Under the pieces are notes generated by a model that searched no databases, was not told the origin of the DNA, and saw only the letters and a list, made by a program, of their open reading frames with translations. From assembly GCA_025936825.1 (NCBI GenBank), contig JAICSO010000003.1, positions 248,001-312,000 on the forward strand: 64,000 bases of DNA. The letters are read 5' to 3'. This DNA is from Terriglobales bacterium (lineage in GTDB: Bacteria; Acidobacteriota; Terriglobia; Terriglobales; Acidobacteriaceae). A program made the position numbers and the translations under genes. Below are positions 13,790 through 63,640 of this stretch, piece after piece (positions within the stretch are counted from its first letter, which is position 1; every line of letters starts with the position of its first letter).

Positions 13790-13890
13790 ATTGAATCATT
13801 GAGAGATTGAATCATTGAAGAAGAGGGGCCGAAGCGGAGGCGTGGTTTTGGCAATGATTCAATGTTTCAATGATTCAATCATTAAATTCC
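13790..13890. repeat. Inverted TTGAATCA repeat, short copy
   Basis: A left arm of degenerate 8-base units (TTGAATCA, 13791-13819), a GC-rich spacer containing GGTTTTG, and a right arm of TGATTCAA units (13853-13881) can fold into a long hairpin. The right arm reaches the stop codon of ybaB. It separates ybaB from recR within the operon. Related copies are at 29594 and 38126. Confidence 0.85.
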
Positions 13891-17502: not shown

Positions 17503-17553
17503 GAATCTCCGGGCGGCTTGACTTGTGTATGTGTGTTGGGTTTTCTTTTCGCT

Positions 17554-17637
17554 GACGCCTGACGCCTGACGCCTGACGCCTGACGCCTGACGCCTGACGC
17601 CTGACGCCTGACGCCTGACGCCTGACGCCTGACGCCT
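17554..17637. repeat. Perfect GACGCCT tandem array, 12 copies
   Basis: Twelve exact copies of a 7-base unit cover 84 bases between the DinB gene and the AhpD-like gene. The last unit overlaps the TAG stop of the AhpD-like gene (17636-17638). No opposing arm is seen, unlike most repeats of this window. Because the copies are identical, the number is likely to vary between strains. Confidence 0.95.
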
Positions 17638-18046: not shown

Positions 18047-18172
18047 TCACCACAAAGGACACAAAGGTACACAAAGGAAACGCCACAGAGGAATACCACA
18101 GAAGTTGTCCTGCCTATTCCAACCTCTGTGTTTTTCCTTTGTGTACCTTTGTGTCCTCTGTGGTGAAGGTGT
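18047..18172. repeat. Inverted ACCACAAAGG-type dispersed repeat (complete copy)
   Basis: A left arm with units of the form ACACAAAGGT (18049-18078) and a right arm with their complement (18134-18171) flank a spacer of about 55 bases; the whole can form a long hairpin. The right arm is read through as the last codons of the XdhC gene. Relatives are at 26616 (complete), 63079 and 10239 (partial). Confidence 0.9.
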
Positions 18173-20654: not shown

Positions 20655-20770
20655 GCATCAAAAGGTGTTTAGCCCCGAATGGGGCAGTCCAGCTTAGCCC
20701 AGGGCGGCAGCCCTGGGTAAAGAGCGAATGATGAATGCTAGTCCCGGAGGGACGAGCGAATGTCGTATGC
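20655..20770. repeat. Palindromic intergenic repeat (GCCCnGGG type)
   Basis: The gap after the oxidoreductase has three short palindromic pieces in a row: one around 'GCCCCGAATGGGGC', one around 'CCCAGGGCGGCAGCCCTGGG', and 'GTCCCGGAGGGAC'. The small frames that cross it on both strands are not credible genes. Similar elements are known as dispersed repeats in several soil phyla. Confidence 0.7.
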
Positions 20771-26615: not shown

Positions 26616-26695
26616 AACCACAAAGGACACGAAGGCACACGAAAGAAAGCAAGATACGGGGATTCCTTCGTGTAACTTTGTGTCCTTCGTGGTGA
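26616..26695. repeat. Inverted ACCACAAAGG-type dispersed repeat, copy 2
   Basis: Left arm 'ACCACAAAGGACACGAAGG' and right arm 'CCTTCGTGTAACTTTGTG' plus 'TCCTTCGTGGT' flank a spacer of about 20 bases. It lies between the PIN remnant and hutH. Confidence 0.88.
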
Positions 26696-26713
26696 ACGCG
26701 CCTTATTTAAGTC

Positions 26714-29593: not shown

Positions 29594-29697
29594 AATTGAA
29601 TCATTGAATCATTGAGACATTGAATCACTGAAAAGGCGAAGCGGGATGGTTTTCTGAAATGATTCAATCTTCCGATGATTCAATGCTTCAATTTTCC
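29594..29697. repeat. Inverted TTGAATCA repeat, second copy
   Basis: Left arm with about five units (29594-29632), spacer with GGTTTTC, right arm 'ATGATTCAATCTTCCGATGA' onward (29659-29697). The right arm is nearly identical to that at 38301. It separates the crotonase gene from cinA. Confidence 0.88.
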
Positions 29698-37031: not shown

Positions 37032-37149
37032 AGTTCAGTGTCCTGGGTCACAAGTTGCAGTCGTGACCGCCATCACATTGATAAGTAAGGTGGATCACCT
37101 CGTCTGGTGCTCTCGAGGCGTACCTTCGAGAATTGACTGGGAGGTGTGT

Positions 37150-38118
37150 ATGCCTGCAACCTTCGTAGCCGAACCCACCCACAGGAAGCGTCCGGAAGAG
37201 GTTTCGTTCAAGCGCATTCTGTTGGCCACCGACTTCTCCGAAGCCTCGGAGCGGGCCCTGAGCTATGCAATTGCATTTTGCGCCCGGTATGCCGCGGACC
37301 TATTTATCGTGCATGCCGCCGAAGCCGAACCGCGGGAAGCGATCCCCATGGATCCTTTGCCACGTGAACTCGACCGTCCTCGTATCGAAGCCGAGCGCCA
37401 GATGAAGCGGTTGGGCAAGAGTGCCAGACTCAAGGATCTCCCGCATAACCTGATCGTCGAGAAGGGCGAAGTGTGGAGGGTATTGTCATCAGTGATCGAG
37501 CGCGAGCACATCGACCTGCTGATCATGGGTACTCATGGCCGACGCGGATTCCGGAAATTAGCCCTCGGATCGGTCGCCGAAGAGGTACTTCATCTCGCAC
37601 CGTGTCCGGTCTTGACGGTTGGACCAAATGTGACGCCTGCCCCGGCGCAGGCGGTCGATTTCCACGAAGTTTTGTTCGCGGCCGATTTTGGCCAAGCCTC
37701 GAATAACGCCTTGCCATACGCCATCGCGCTCGCCCAGGAGTGCAGCGGTCACCTCGTCCTGCTTCATATGATTGAGCCCATGCCTGCGGCGGAAATTGCG
37801 CCCGCTGCTTACGGTCCACCGATCTATGCGGCGCAGGAACTTGCCAAATGGCAGTCTGCGCGCAAACGCGAGAGTGAAGACAAACTTGCCGACCTGCTTC
37901 CGTCCAGCGTGCAGTGGGTCTCAAAGCCAACGTTTGCGGTCGGAATGGATTTGCTGCCGGAAGGCATTCTTGAAGTTGCCAAAATACATAAATCCGAGCT
38001 GATCGTCATGGGCGCAAACCACACCGAGACCCCTCGCTTAGCAGCCCACTTGCCATGGGCGCTTACCAGCGAGGTCATCCGCAAGGCGCGGTGCCCCGTG
38101 CTGACGTGCAGAAGCTAG
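37150..38118 (+). CDS. Tandem universal stress protein (two UspA domains)
   Basis: 322 residues. Domain 1 (about 18-165) starts 'FKRILLATDFSEASERALSYA' and has the ATP-binding 'GTHGRRGFRKLALGSVAEEV'. Domain 2 (about 178-320) starts 'FHEVLFAADFGQASNNAL' but lacks the second Gly-rich motif ('GANHTETPRLAAH'), so it may not bind nucleotide. ATG 37150 is supported by GGGAGG 5 bases upstream; the open frame extends to 37063. Expected role: stress survival. Confidence 0.88.
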   Translation: MPATFVAEPTHRKRPEEVSFKRILLATDFSEASERALSYAIAFCARYAADLFIVHAAEAEPREAIPMDPLPRELDRPRIEAERQMKRLGKSARLKDLPHNLIVEKGEVWRVLSSVIEREHIDLLIMGTHGRRGFRKLALGSVAEEVLHLAPCPVLTVGPNVTPAPAQAVDFHEVLFAADFGQASNNALPYAIALAQECSGHLVLLHMIEPMPAAEIAPAAYGPPIYAAQELAKWQSARKRESEDKLADLLPSSVQWVSKPTFAVGMDLLPEGILEVAKIHKSELIVMGANHTETPRLAAHLPWALTSEVIRKARCPVLTCRS

Positions 38119-38125
38119 GAAGGAG

Positions 38126-38336
38126 TCATTGAGGCATTGAATCATTGAATGATTGAATCATTGAATCATTGCATCATTGCATCATTGAATCATTGAATCA
38201 TTGAATCATTGAATCATTGAATCATTGAATCATTGAATCATTGAATCATTGAATCATTGAATCATTGAATCATTGAATGTCCCTTCGAGGACGGTTTGCC
38301 AATGATTCAATCCTCCGATGACTCAATGATTCAATT
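38126..38336. repeat. Expanded TTGAATCA array with inverted right arm
   Basis: About 18 units of an 8-base repeat TTGAATCA cover 38136-38278, mostly perfect (a few units read TTGCATCA). A spacer with 'GGACGGTTTGCC' follows, then a right arm 'ATGATTCAATCCTCCGATGA' onward (38302-38336). It is the longest of the three copies of this family. It lies between the UspA gene and the EamA transporter. Confidence 0.95.
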
Positions 38337-38371
38337 TCATACGACTCCTGCCTTCAATTTATGATCAGTGG

Positions 38372-39325
38372 GTGAGTTCCCGCCCGGCATCCTGGAAGAT
38401 TCTCTCCGCATTCGCGATCATTTACTTTGTCTGGGGTTCCACGTACCTGGCGATCCGCGTGGGCGTGCTGGAGATGCCACCATTCCTGATGGCAGGCATC
38501 CGCTTCTTCCTCGCCGGAGCCATTCTCTACGCCTGGATGCGCCTGACCGGTGTTCCATCTCCGACTCGGAGAGAGTGGCGTGACGCCATCATTCTTGGCG
38601 CGCTCATGTTTTTGATGGACTACGCTTGCCTCTTTTGGGCCGAACAGCGCGTGCCTTCGGGCATCAGTGCGGTGATTCTCGCGGCGATTCCCGTTTGCAT
38701 CACGCTGCTGGAAATTCTTTTCCTGCGCACACAGAAGTTAACCATGCGACTTGCCGCGGGTCTTGGCGTAGGAATGGTGGGCGTTGGCGTTCTCGTGAAT
38801 CCGTTTTCGTCGCTGGGTGAAGCACCGCTGGACCATGGCGGAGTGATCGCGCTCATTGTCGCCTGCTGGGGATGGTCCATCGGCACGATCGTGACGCGTC
38901 GCGTGACTCTGCCGAAATCCAAGGCACTGGGCTCCGCCATGCAGATGTTATGCGGTGGCATTCAGCTCTTGATCCTTGCTGCGATTGCCGGAGAGTTCAC
39001 GCGCTTCCATCCGCGCAGCATTTCGCCGGCGGCTTGGTTCTCGCTCTTTTACCTGATCACCGCAGGATCGATCGTCGCCTTCACCGCCTACGTCTGGCTG
39101 CTGCATTATGAGTCGCCGACGAAGGTTGGCACCTATGCCTACGTGAATCCGATTGTCGCTGTGATTCTCGGCGCATTTTTGGGCGGGGAAGCCGTCGGCC
39201 GCAGAACCGTGCTCGCCGGCTTACTCATTCTGATCGGCGTTGCGGCCATCACAACGATGAAAGCGAAAGTTGCGCCTTCCATCGAGGAAAGATTTCAAAC
39301 CGCGAGAGCCGAAGACAATCCGTGA
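38372..39325 (+). CDS. EamA/DMT family transporter
   Basis: 317 residues with about ten hydrophobic segments in two EamA halves; signatures 'IIYFVWGSTYLAIRVGVLEM' and 'YAYVNPIVAVILGAFLGGE'. The 'FWAEQRVPSGISAVI' loop is common in the family. Drug/metabolite exporters of this type move amino acids or small metabolites; the substrate is unknown. Start GTG 38372. Confidence 0.88.
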   Translation: MSSRPASWKILSAFAIIYFVWGSTYLAIRVGVLEMPPFLMAGIRFFLAGAILYAWMRLTGVPSPTRREWRDAIILGALMFLMDYACLFWAEQRVPSGISAVILAAIPVCITLLEILFLRTQKLTMRLAAGLGVGMVGVGVLVNPFSSLGEAPLDHGGVIALIVACWGWSIGTIVTRRVTLPKSKALGSAMQMLCGGIQLLILAAIAGEFTRFHPRSISPAAWFSLFYLITAGSIVAFTAYVWLLHYESPTKVGTYAYVNPIVAVILGAFLGGEAVGRRTVLAGLLILIGVAAITTMKAKVAPSIEERFQTARAEDNP

Positions 39326-54923: not shown

Positions 54924-55025
54924 CCAGGCACCGGCGACCCACTGCACACGCAAGAGCCCGTTACCGTTGCTTCCTTCCGGACCTGGCGGGGTTGGCGGGA
55001 AGACGTCGCGCGGGGCCGATGCCTG
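54924..55025 (-). ncRNA. ffs: Signal recognition particle RNA, small bacterial type
   Basis: On the minus strand the conserved domain IV hairpin reads 'CCAGGTCCGGAAGGAAGCAA', containing the GGAAG tetraloop core. The flanks close the helix: 'CAGGCATCGGCCCC' at the 5' end pairs with '...CGCCGGTGCCTGGC' at the 3' end. The length of about 102 bases fits the 4.5S type. It binds Ffh to target nascent membrane proteins. It lies between the monooxygenase gene and the TetR operon, transcribed opposite to both. Confidence 0.92.
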
Positions 55026-63543: not shown

Positions 63544-63548
63544 ACCAG

Positions 63549-63640
63549 CCTTTAGCTGTTAGCTCTTAGCCTTTAGCCAAAGCCACTTGAACTTCCACGA
63601 AAAAGCTAAAAGCTAACGGCTAAAAGCTAATAGCTAACTT
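63549..63640. repeat. Inverted heptamer repeat (TTAGCNN / AAAGCTA arms)
   Basis: Left arm with four units of the form TTAGCNN (63551-63579), spacer of about 23 bases, right arm with five units such as AAAGCTA (63602-63637), complementary to the left. It ends three bases before the gcvPA ATG, so transcripts of the gene could carry a hairpin near the ribosome site. Confidence 0.85.

Follow-up and report, generated by a model that had tools for sequence, protein, structure and literature searches.

An expanded octamer array beside a Usp gene in a Terriglobales genome is probably one copy of a dispersed foldback repeat

Here we describe a strongly expanded tandem array of the octamer TTGAATCA, which lies between a gene with Usp domains and a transporter gene on contig JAICSO010000003.1 of a Terriglobales bacterium (assembly GCA_025936825.1). 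The array belongs to a stretch of 64,000 nucleotides, positions 248,001 to 312,000 of the forward strand, that we call the window and whose coordinates are used below. The locus is laid out as follows:

37144..38118, + strand: upstream gene with two Usp domains (PF00582), start codon uncertain (37063 in the list of open reading frames)
38128..38278, + strand: left arm, about 18 tandem octamers
38280..38299: spacer TCCCTTCGAGGACGGTTTGC, 20 nt
38300..38335, - strand: right arm, 36 nt, 86% complementary to left-arm stretches
38372..39325, + strand: downstream gene, EamA-family transporter (PF00892)

The whole element spans approximately 38128-38335; the stop codon of the Usp gene ends 7-17 nt before it, a range that reflects the choice of a start for the degenerate arm, and 36 nt separate the right arm from the start of the EamA gene. 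Tandem Repeats Finder (TRF) reports 38126-38278 as an array of period 8, with 19.1 copies, a 95% match and a score of 271. The variant units TTGAGGCA, TTGAATGA and TTGCATCA, the last of these twice, stand at the 5′ side of the left arm, and 11 consecutive perfect TTGAATCA units (38185-38272) adjoin the spacer; the left arm holds 14 exact units in all, and the right arm two exact reverse units. Across the window TTGAATCA is counted 26 times, where 2.54 would be expected; the highest count in any of 100 shuffles was 7. The original prediction for this locus, made from the letters alone, was of a long head-to-tail array with an opposing arm, and that is what is found, together with the two neighbours it named, a stress (Usp) gene upstream and an exporter-type (EamA) gene downstream, both on the + strand. 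Its term “mirror arms” was wrong, since the arms are inverted repeats and not mirror repeats.

The source genome (G000) is a 6.54 Mb assembly in 141 contigs. Across this assembly, the 16-mer TTGAATCATTGAATCA gives 69 overlapping matches at 38 places (matches within 300 nt being merged), 11 of the matches in the window array, and the same 16-mer read backward, as a control, gives none. A sample of 1.24 Mb was read, with 30 stretches picked for their content of the TTGAATCA octamer or 16-mer, and it holds 37 two-armed copies. Copies follow a common plan, a consensus drawn by eye: AATTGAATCATTGAATCATYGRNNNATTGAATCATTG, a variable tip with GGTTTT as its frequent ending, and then the inverted arm. 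The array in the window had also been joined with two other elements, at 13790 and 29595, by a shared arm and a shared spacer. The three elements are real, their arms are common and GGTTT stands in every spacer; further likeness of the spacers is weak at best, with a local score of 10 between 13790 and 29595 (the 99.9th percentile of shuffled pairs is 11.3) and scores of only 5 and 7 between these two and the spacer at 38280. Beyond the source genome, the 16-mer occurs in four of seven congeners, in 4 of 29 further genomes from the family and in none of 24 genomes outside it, and among 347 genomes drawn from the phylum it is found in five, the source genome included, with one match in each of the other four. 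We read the array as one copy of a dispersed, non-coding foldback repeat, most likely without a dedicated function, and give this reading a probability of roughly 55%; it gives the impression of genomic clutter, prone to spreading and stretching, and less that of a switch for its neighbour genes. The special link to the stress gene and the exporter that had been proposed finds no support, because the family is genome-wide, no Usp gene was recognised beside the EamA gene in five relatives (within flanks of up to about 1.5 kb) and no terminator-like site was found at the locus.

Copying is shown by a sister of the window element, a copy on another contig (L020, contig C54, 42326-42428) whose spacer, with two differences, and right arm match those of the window and whose flanks differ. 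The left arm of the sister has six units against 18 in the window copy, the latter being the length as assembled. Another copy with a long arm, L030 on contig C123, carries 15 exact units on the right side, and among the copies listed only this one and the window copy exceed five exact units in one arm. The order of units in the left arm of the window copy, variants first and the 11 identical ones adjoining the spacer, is what a recent tandem expansion would be expected to leave, so the suggestion that the array had grown recently is supported both by this perfect run and by the difference in arm length between the sisters. Among 666 spacer pairs, only two score above the best shuffled pair: the window with L020, and L033 with L037, whose spacers share an inner array.

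An element consists of two inverted arms of about four octamers each around a variable tip. Copies occupy intergenic gaps, often nearly filling them, with their ends close to stop codons. The data show the family and its dispersal, its presence or absence at orthologous gaps, the nesting of different families and the unequal arm lengths of two sister copies. From these we infer that copies spread and persist where no reading frame is broken, the unit carrying TGA in all six frames, and that one arm may lengthen through slippage in replication or through unequal exchange; the long arm at 38126 would be such an expansion.

Genes in the DNA examined beyond the window were predicted with a simple in-house gene finder, some of whose short genes and starts are doubtful. 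A gap was taken as orthologous between G000 and its congener G004 if both flanking genes were reciprocal best matches (210 such genes, median 76% protein identity). The contents of orthologous gaps and the unit labels were assigned by eye, the labels after the data were seen. Thirteen gaps with a TTGAATCA element in G000 have counterparts in G004: one contains the same element, one a remnant, four a different palindrome or array (one of these below threshold) and seven nothing over threshold; the reverse case was seen in one gap (L034 8351). Three elements of the window were compared in more detail:

13790..13879: second family member, between recR-like and ybaB-like genes
29595..29692: third family member
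63547..63637: heptamer palindrome AGCCTTT / AAAAGCT (GCTAAAA type), in the gcvH-gcvP gap (63544-63640)

The first of these gaps has a palindrome of a different unit, GTAATTT type by eye, in the congeners G003 and G004 (over threshold in G004), and the recR-ybaB distance is 95, 97, 90 and 91 nt in four species and 61 and 12 nt in two others. At 29595, G003 (L066) has an element of TTGAATCA whose arms are similar and whose spacer is longer and unrelated, and G004 has nothing over threshold. The gcvH-gcvP gap, occupied by a heptamer palindrome in the window, is filled in G003 by a palindrome of TTGAATCA and in G035 by a related palindrome (loci L074 and L063), and its length stays nearly constant at 97, 104 and 97 nt in three species, two of which were found through their octamer. 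A near-empty site lies at window 4597, where the gap measures 5 nt in G000 and G003 has 99 nt with an element between facing stop codons (L052), the flanking proteins being 51 and 69% identical. Elements are also shared with relatives (window 29595/L066, L011/L054, L037/L073, L027/L059). The arms of five shared elements are similar and the spacers are not, and since most of these arm scores fall within the range of unrelated copies, common ancestry is clearest for L011/L054, whose right arms match at 35 of 36 positions across the species split. Over 113 orthologous gaps, both species have an array or a strong inverted repeat in 16, where 8.1 are expected (p ~1e-4); by eye, three of the 16 have the same unit and two have related units.

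The octamer is one unit among many. TRF was run on 852,865 bases of G000, with 30 of the 41 stretches picked for octamer content, and arrays with less than 20% coding overlap make up 64 of 85 at period 7, 79 of 88 at period 8 and 27 of 44 at period 9, whereas arrays of period 12 are mostly coding (2 of 21 intergenic). The units in G000 include GCTAAAA, AACCTGA, CTGACGC, CCAACGA, GTTTCAA and CTAGTGG, and also CACGAAGGA, CGCAAAGGA and CACGGAGG. In a census of gaps of at least 40 nt, counting arrays of periods 6-10, 14, 16 or 18 and with shuffled gaps as the control, arrays are present in 170 of 748 gaps of G000 (22.7%) and in 51 of 488 of G004 (10.5%), compared with about 1% in the control; for the window together with ten stretches that were not picked for the octamer, the count is 35 of 158. 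An inverted-repeat score of at least 12 is reached by 77% of the array gaps in G000 and by 26% of the other gaps, and when all 1236 gaps of G000 and G004 are shuffled, 12.5% reach it. Units also nest within one another: at L033 13357-13510 the arms of TTGAATCA enclose facing arrays of GCTCACC, a CGCAGAG palindrome lies within TTGAATCA arms in G004, and palindromes or arrays of other units lie within such arms at L037 and L055.

Several further arrays were noted. At window 17552-17637, a row of twelve perfect CTGACGC heptamers reaches as far as the stop codon of a gene on the reverse strand, and the corresponding gap in G004 is 17 nt long and has no array. Palindromes of ACCACGAAGGACACGAAGG and CCTTCGTGTCCTTCGTGGT occur at 18051-18162, at 26619-26700 and at many other loci, with the parallel variants CACAAAG, CGCAAAG, CACAGAG and CACGGAG on both arms; phrases of this type are said to occur in many phyla. 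In the Bacteroidales metagenome-assembled genome (MAG) GMC9.metabat2.98 (L110, L134, L138), very long direct arrays of ATTGAATC and ATTGAATA stand on several contigs, and in Erwinia persicina (L151) the short-unit arrays GGATTTCA, GATTCAAT and TGATTACA lie side by side on one contig.

Where the elements sit bears on the rival that we weigh most seriously, namely that the palindromes are functional hairpins at mRNA 3′ ends, which end or protect the upstream transcript whatever their sequence. Of the element edges that face a stop codon, 26 of 36 come within 10 nt of it, and of those that face a start, 13 of 38 do, as this rival would have it. When elements are placed at random within these gaps, 21.4 ± 1.6 stop edges already result (27 at most in 2000 runs), a high figure because the elements nearly fill their gaps, at most 35 nt being left over for 21 of 37 two-armed copies; five elements include a predicted stop codon, two of the genes concerned being doubtful calls. 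Counted with arms apart, 32 of 67 octamer arrays and 37 of 124 arrays of other units lie within 20 nt of a stop codon, more than the 16.1 ± 3.0 and 21.8 ± 3.2 expected. In co-directional gaps of G000 the array is nearer the stop in 67 and nearer the start in 46 of 117 (p = 0.06), whereas in G004 the split is 16 to 16 of 32, which speaks against a 3′-end role. Gap types point both ways as well: in the window and the ten unselected stretches convergent gaps are the most often occupied (6 of 20) and divergent gaps stand at 3 of 26, but on contig C34 convergent gaps rank lowest (3 of 35), and over all of G000 they resemble divergent ones (23 of 113 and 30 of 152, with 56 of 246 and 61 of 237 for the two same-direction types). 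Moreover, 6 of the 37 two-armed copies are flanked by divergent genes and thus have no stop codon on either side. Taken together, these counts argue for a stop-side preference that is real but modest.

The predicted RNA fold of the window element reaches -82.6 kcal/mol, against a shuffle mean of -66.55 (z -3.59; 1 of 200 shuffles as good), and adds a 7-pair outer stem, AGGAGTC / GACTCCT, just outside the element. The very stable hairpin that had been foreseen is thus predicted, in favour of a 3′-end role, although part of this stability comes from the expanded array folding on itself. Selection for pairing would make the two arms of an element match each other best, and they do not: own arms score 20.24, arms of different elements 20.95 ± 0.44, and 4751 of 5000 permutations score at least as high, so that co-evolution of the two arms was not seen in this test and selected pairing is disfavoured. 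A scan of 37900-38500 found no terminator-like site, that is, no GC stem followed by a U-run at the window locus. A terminator formed from the AAAACC..GGTTTT core of many spacers was considered but not adopted as the main reading, as tips are variable, the T-run lies inside the palindrome and the scan of the locus was negative. Because own arms pair no better and no terminator-like site is present, we favour the dispersed repeat and regard a 3′-end role of the RNA as unlikely, if credible; a side effect of the array on the usp transcript is possible. The only matches to Rfam in the window at the gathering threshold are an Acido-Lenti-1 RNA (20671-20717) and a bacterial small SRP RNA (54925-55022), both on the - strand.

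It is doubtful, too, that slippage and template switching between hairpin arms create the arrays repeatedly in place, in which case similar units in different genes or phyla would be convergent and not copies. A 24-mer of the array occurs in arrays of Bacteroidales, a planctomycete, Methanosarcina, Erwinia and others (64 stretches, of which 19 were inspected; acidobacterial MAGs are also among the genomes that have it, which with the Acido-Lenti-1 RNA points to Acidobacteriota as the phylum of the window), and many heptamer units appear only a few times in the sample, both of which recurrent origin would explain. Against it, the TTGAATCA copies share a complex arm pattern and a length that go beyond the unit, the match between the window and L020 spacers shows copying, and the 38 places in G000 stand against a single match in each of the other four positive genomes of the phylum. 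The genus Koribacter is an acidobacterium. Improbable is the last alternative, in which these would be miniature elements akin to repetitive extragenic palindromes (REPs) or terminal inverted repeats (TIRs) and moved by Y1 tyrosine transposases of the RAYT or TIRYT kind: G000 does have Y1_Tnp genes (8 matches), and TIRYTs with a TIR repeat family are reported from Koribacter (PMC3733652), but TTGAATCAT occurs at none of the 8 Y1_Tnp loci (flanks of about 1.5 kb), several of these are flanked by other, GC-rich inverted repeats, and no GTAG or CGTC tag was seen by eye at the ends of the listed copies, leaving this mobilisation unsupported. The inverted repeats at three Y1 loci (L099, L100 and L102), such as GGGGTGCCCCATGTCTCGCG and ACAGCCGCCTCGGCTGTC, may themselves belong to TIRYT elements.

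The reading as a dispersed repeat has its own difficulties, and several observations weigh against it. No vehicle was found: the Y1 transposase loci carry other inverted repeats, a phage is not indicated (the 24-mer has 0 matches in viral contigs), and no target duplication of the kind left by miniature inverted-repeat transposable elements (MITEs) is evident by eye among the listed copies, relatives being too diverged for exact empty sites. The spacers are mostly unlike one another, as the spacer comparison above makes plain, and this is unusual within a MITE family. The right-arm match of L011/L054 hints at constraint or recent transfer. Finally, pure clutter does not predict an excess of gaps that are filled in both species with different units, yet there are 11 such gaps against 5.7 expected (108 gaps, p 0.004), an excess that a 3′-end role would account for; with a minimum length of 40 nt required of one of the two gaps, the expectation rises to 7.4 (p 0.05), and with the same minimum required of both, to 7.6 (61 gaps, p 0.06). 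Perhaps, then, intergenic gaps in this group are slots refilled with palindromes of ever-different 7-9 nt tandem units, with selection or a copying process favouring the foldback architecture over the sequence. We hold this joint proposal only tentatively and rather doubt it: gap length confounds the refilling test, since arrays lengthen gaps, and as the labels were given by eye after the data were seen, refilling is a lead and not a result.

Among published repeats, the GGGAATC heptamer of Xanthomonas comes closest. As described there (Rehm et al. 2015, PMC4692102), it forms intergenic arrays, mostly of four and up to 26 units, with facing pairs of arrays in 70 cases in one genome; many lie within 50 bp of a stop codon and they are under-represented between divergent genes. 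The arrays described here resemble those of that account in their intergenic head-to-tail units of 7-9 nt, in their facing arrays (the 36-nt arms of the window element among them) and in their frequent position near stops, but differ in an octamer without G-runs, in many coexisting and nested unit families and in gap occupants that often differ between species. In place of a G-rich unit that could form a quadruplex, TTGAATCA has one G and no G-run, and it is therefore a variant of the Xanthomonas kind and not a member of that family. The TAACTGA repeats of Beggiatoaceae, by the description given of them (MacGregor 2015, PMC4679880), are likewise arrays of a short unit that contains stop codons, dispersed through intergenic DNA and occurring here and there in different phyla, with no evident mechanism of transfer; unlike the palindromes here, they are direct repeats (with one inverted case) and mostly lie just upstream of starts. 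In Geobacter bemidjiensis, multicopy sequences of several families are reported in 12% of intergenic regions (PMC2996986), some palindromic and others direct repeats of 6 to 42 nt, a likeness by description only. REPs (PMC3733652) measure 20-40 bp, most with a GTAG or CGTC tag and the GTAG ones often with a linked transposase; our copies share with these, with REPINs and with TIRYT-associated palindromes an extragenic position and a high copy number, but no constant tag or linked transposase was seen and the arms here are tandem arrays. A literature search of limited scope matched none of the literal array sequences and turned up no such palindromes described in acidobacteria. What sets the present family apart is its unit, the number of coexisting unit families, their nesting and the differing occupants of the same gap.

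The single locus at 38126 matters less than the phenomenon across the group to which it belongs. Arrays are present in about one in five of the sampled gaps that measure at least 40 nt, and the many types of unit nest within one another and differ between related species in the same gap. How its repeats originate and spread is a question that the paper on the Beggiatoaceae repeats leaves open (PMC4679880), and this group of bacteria is a good system in which to learn how short tandem palindromes arise and spread.
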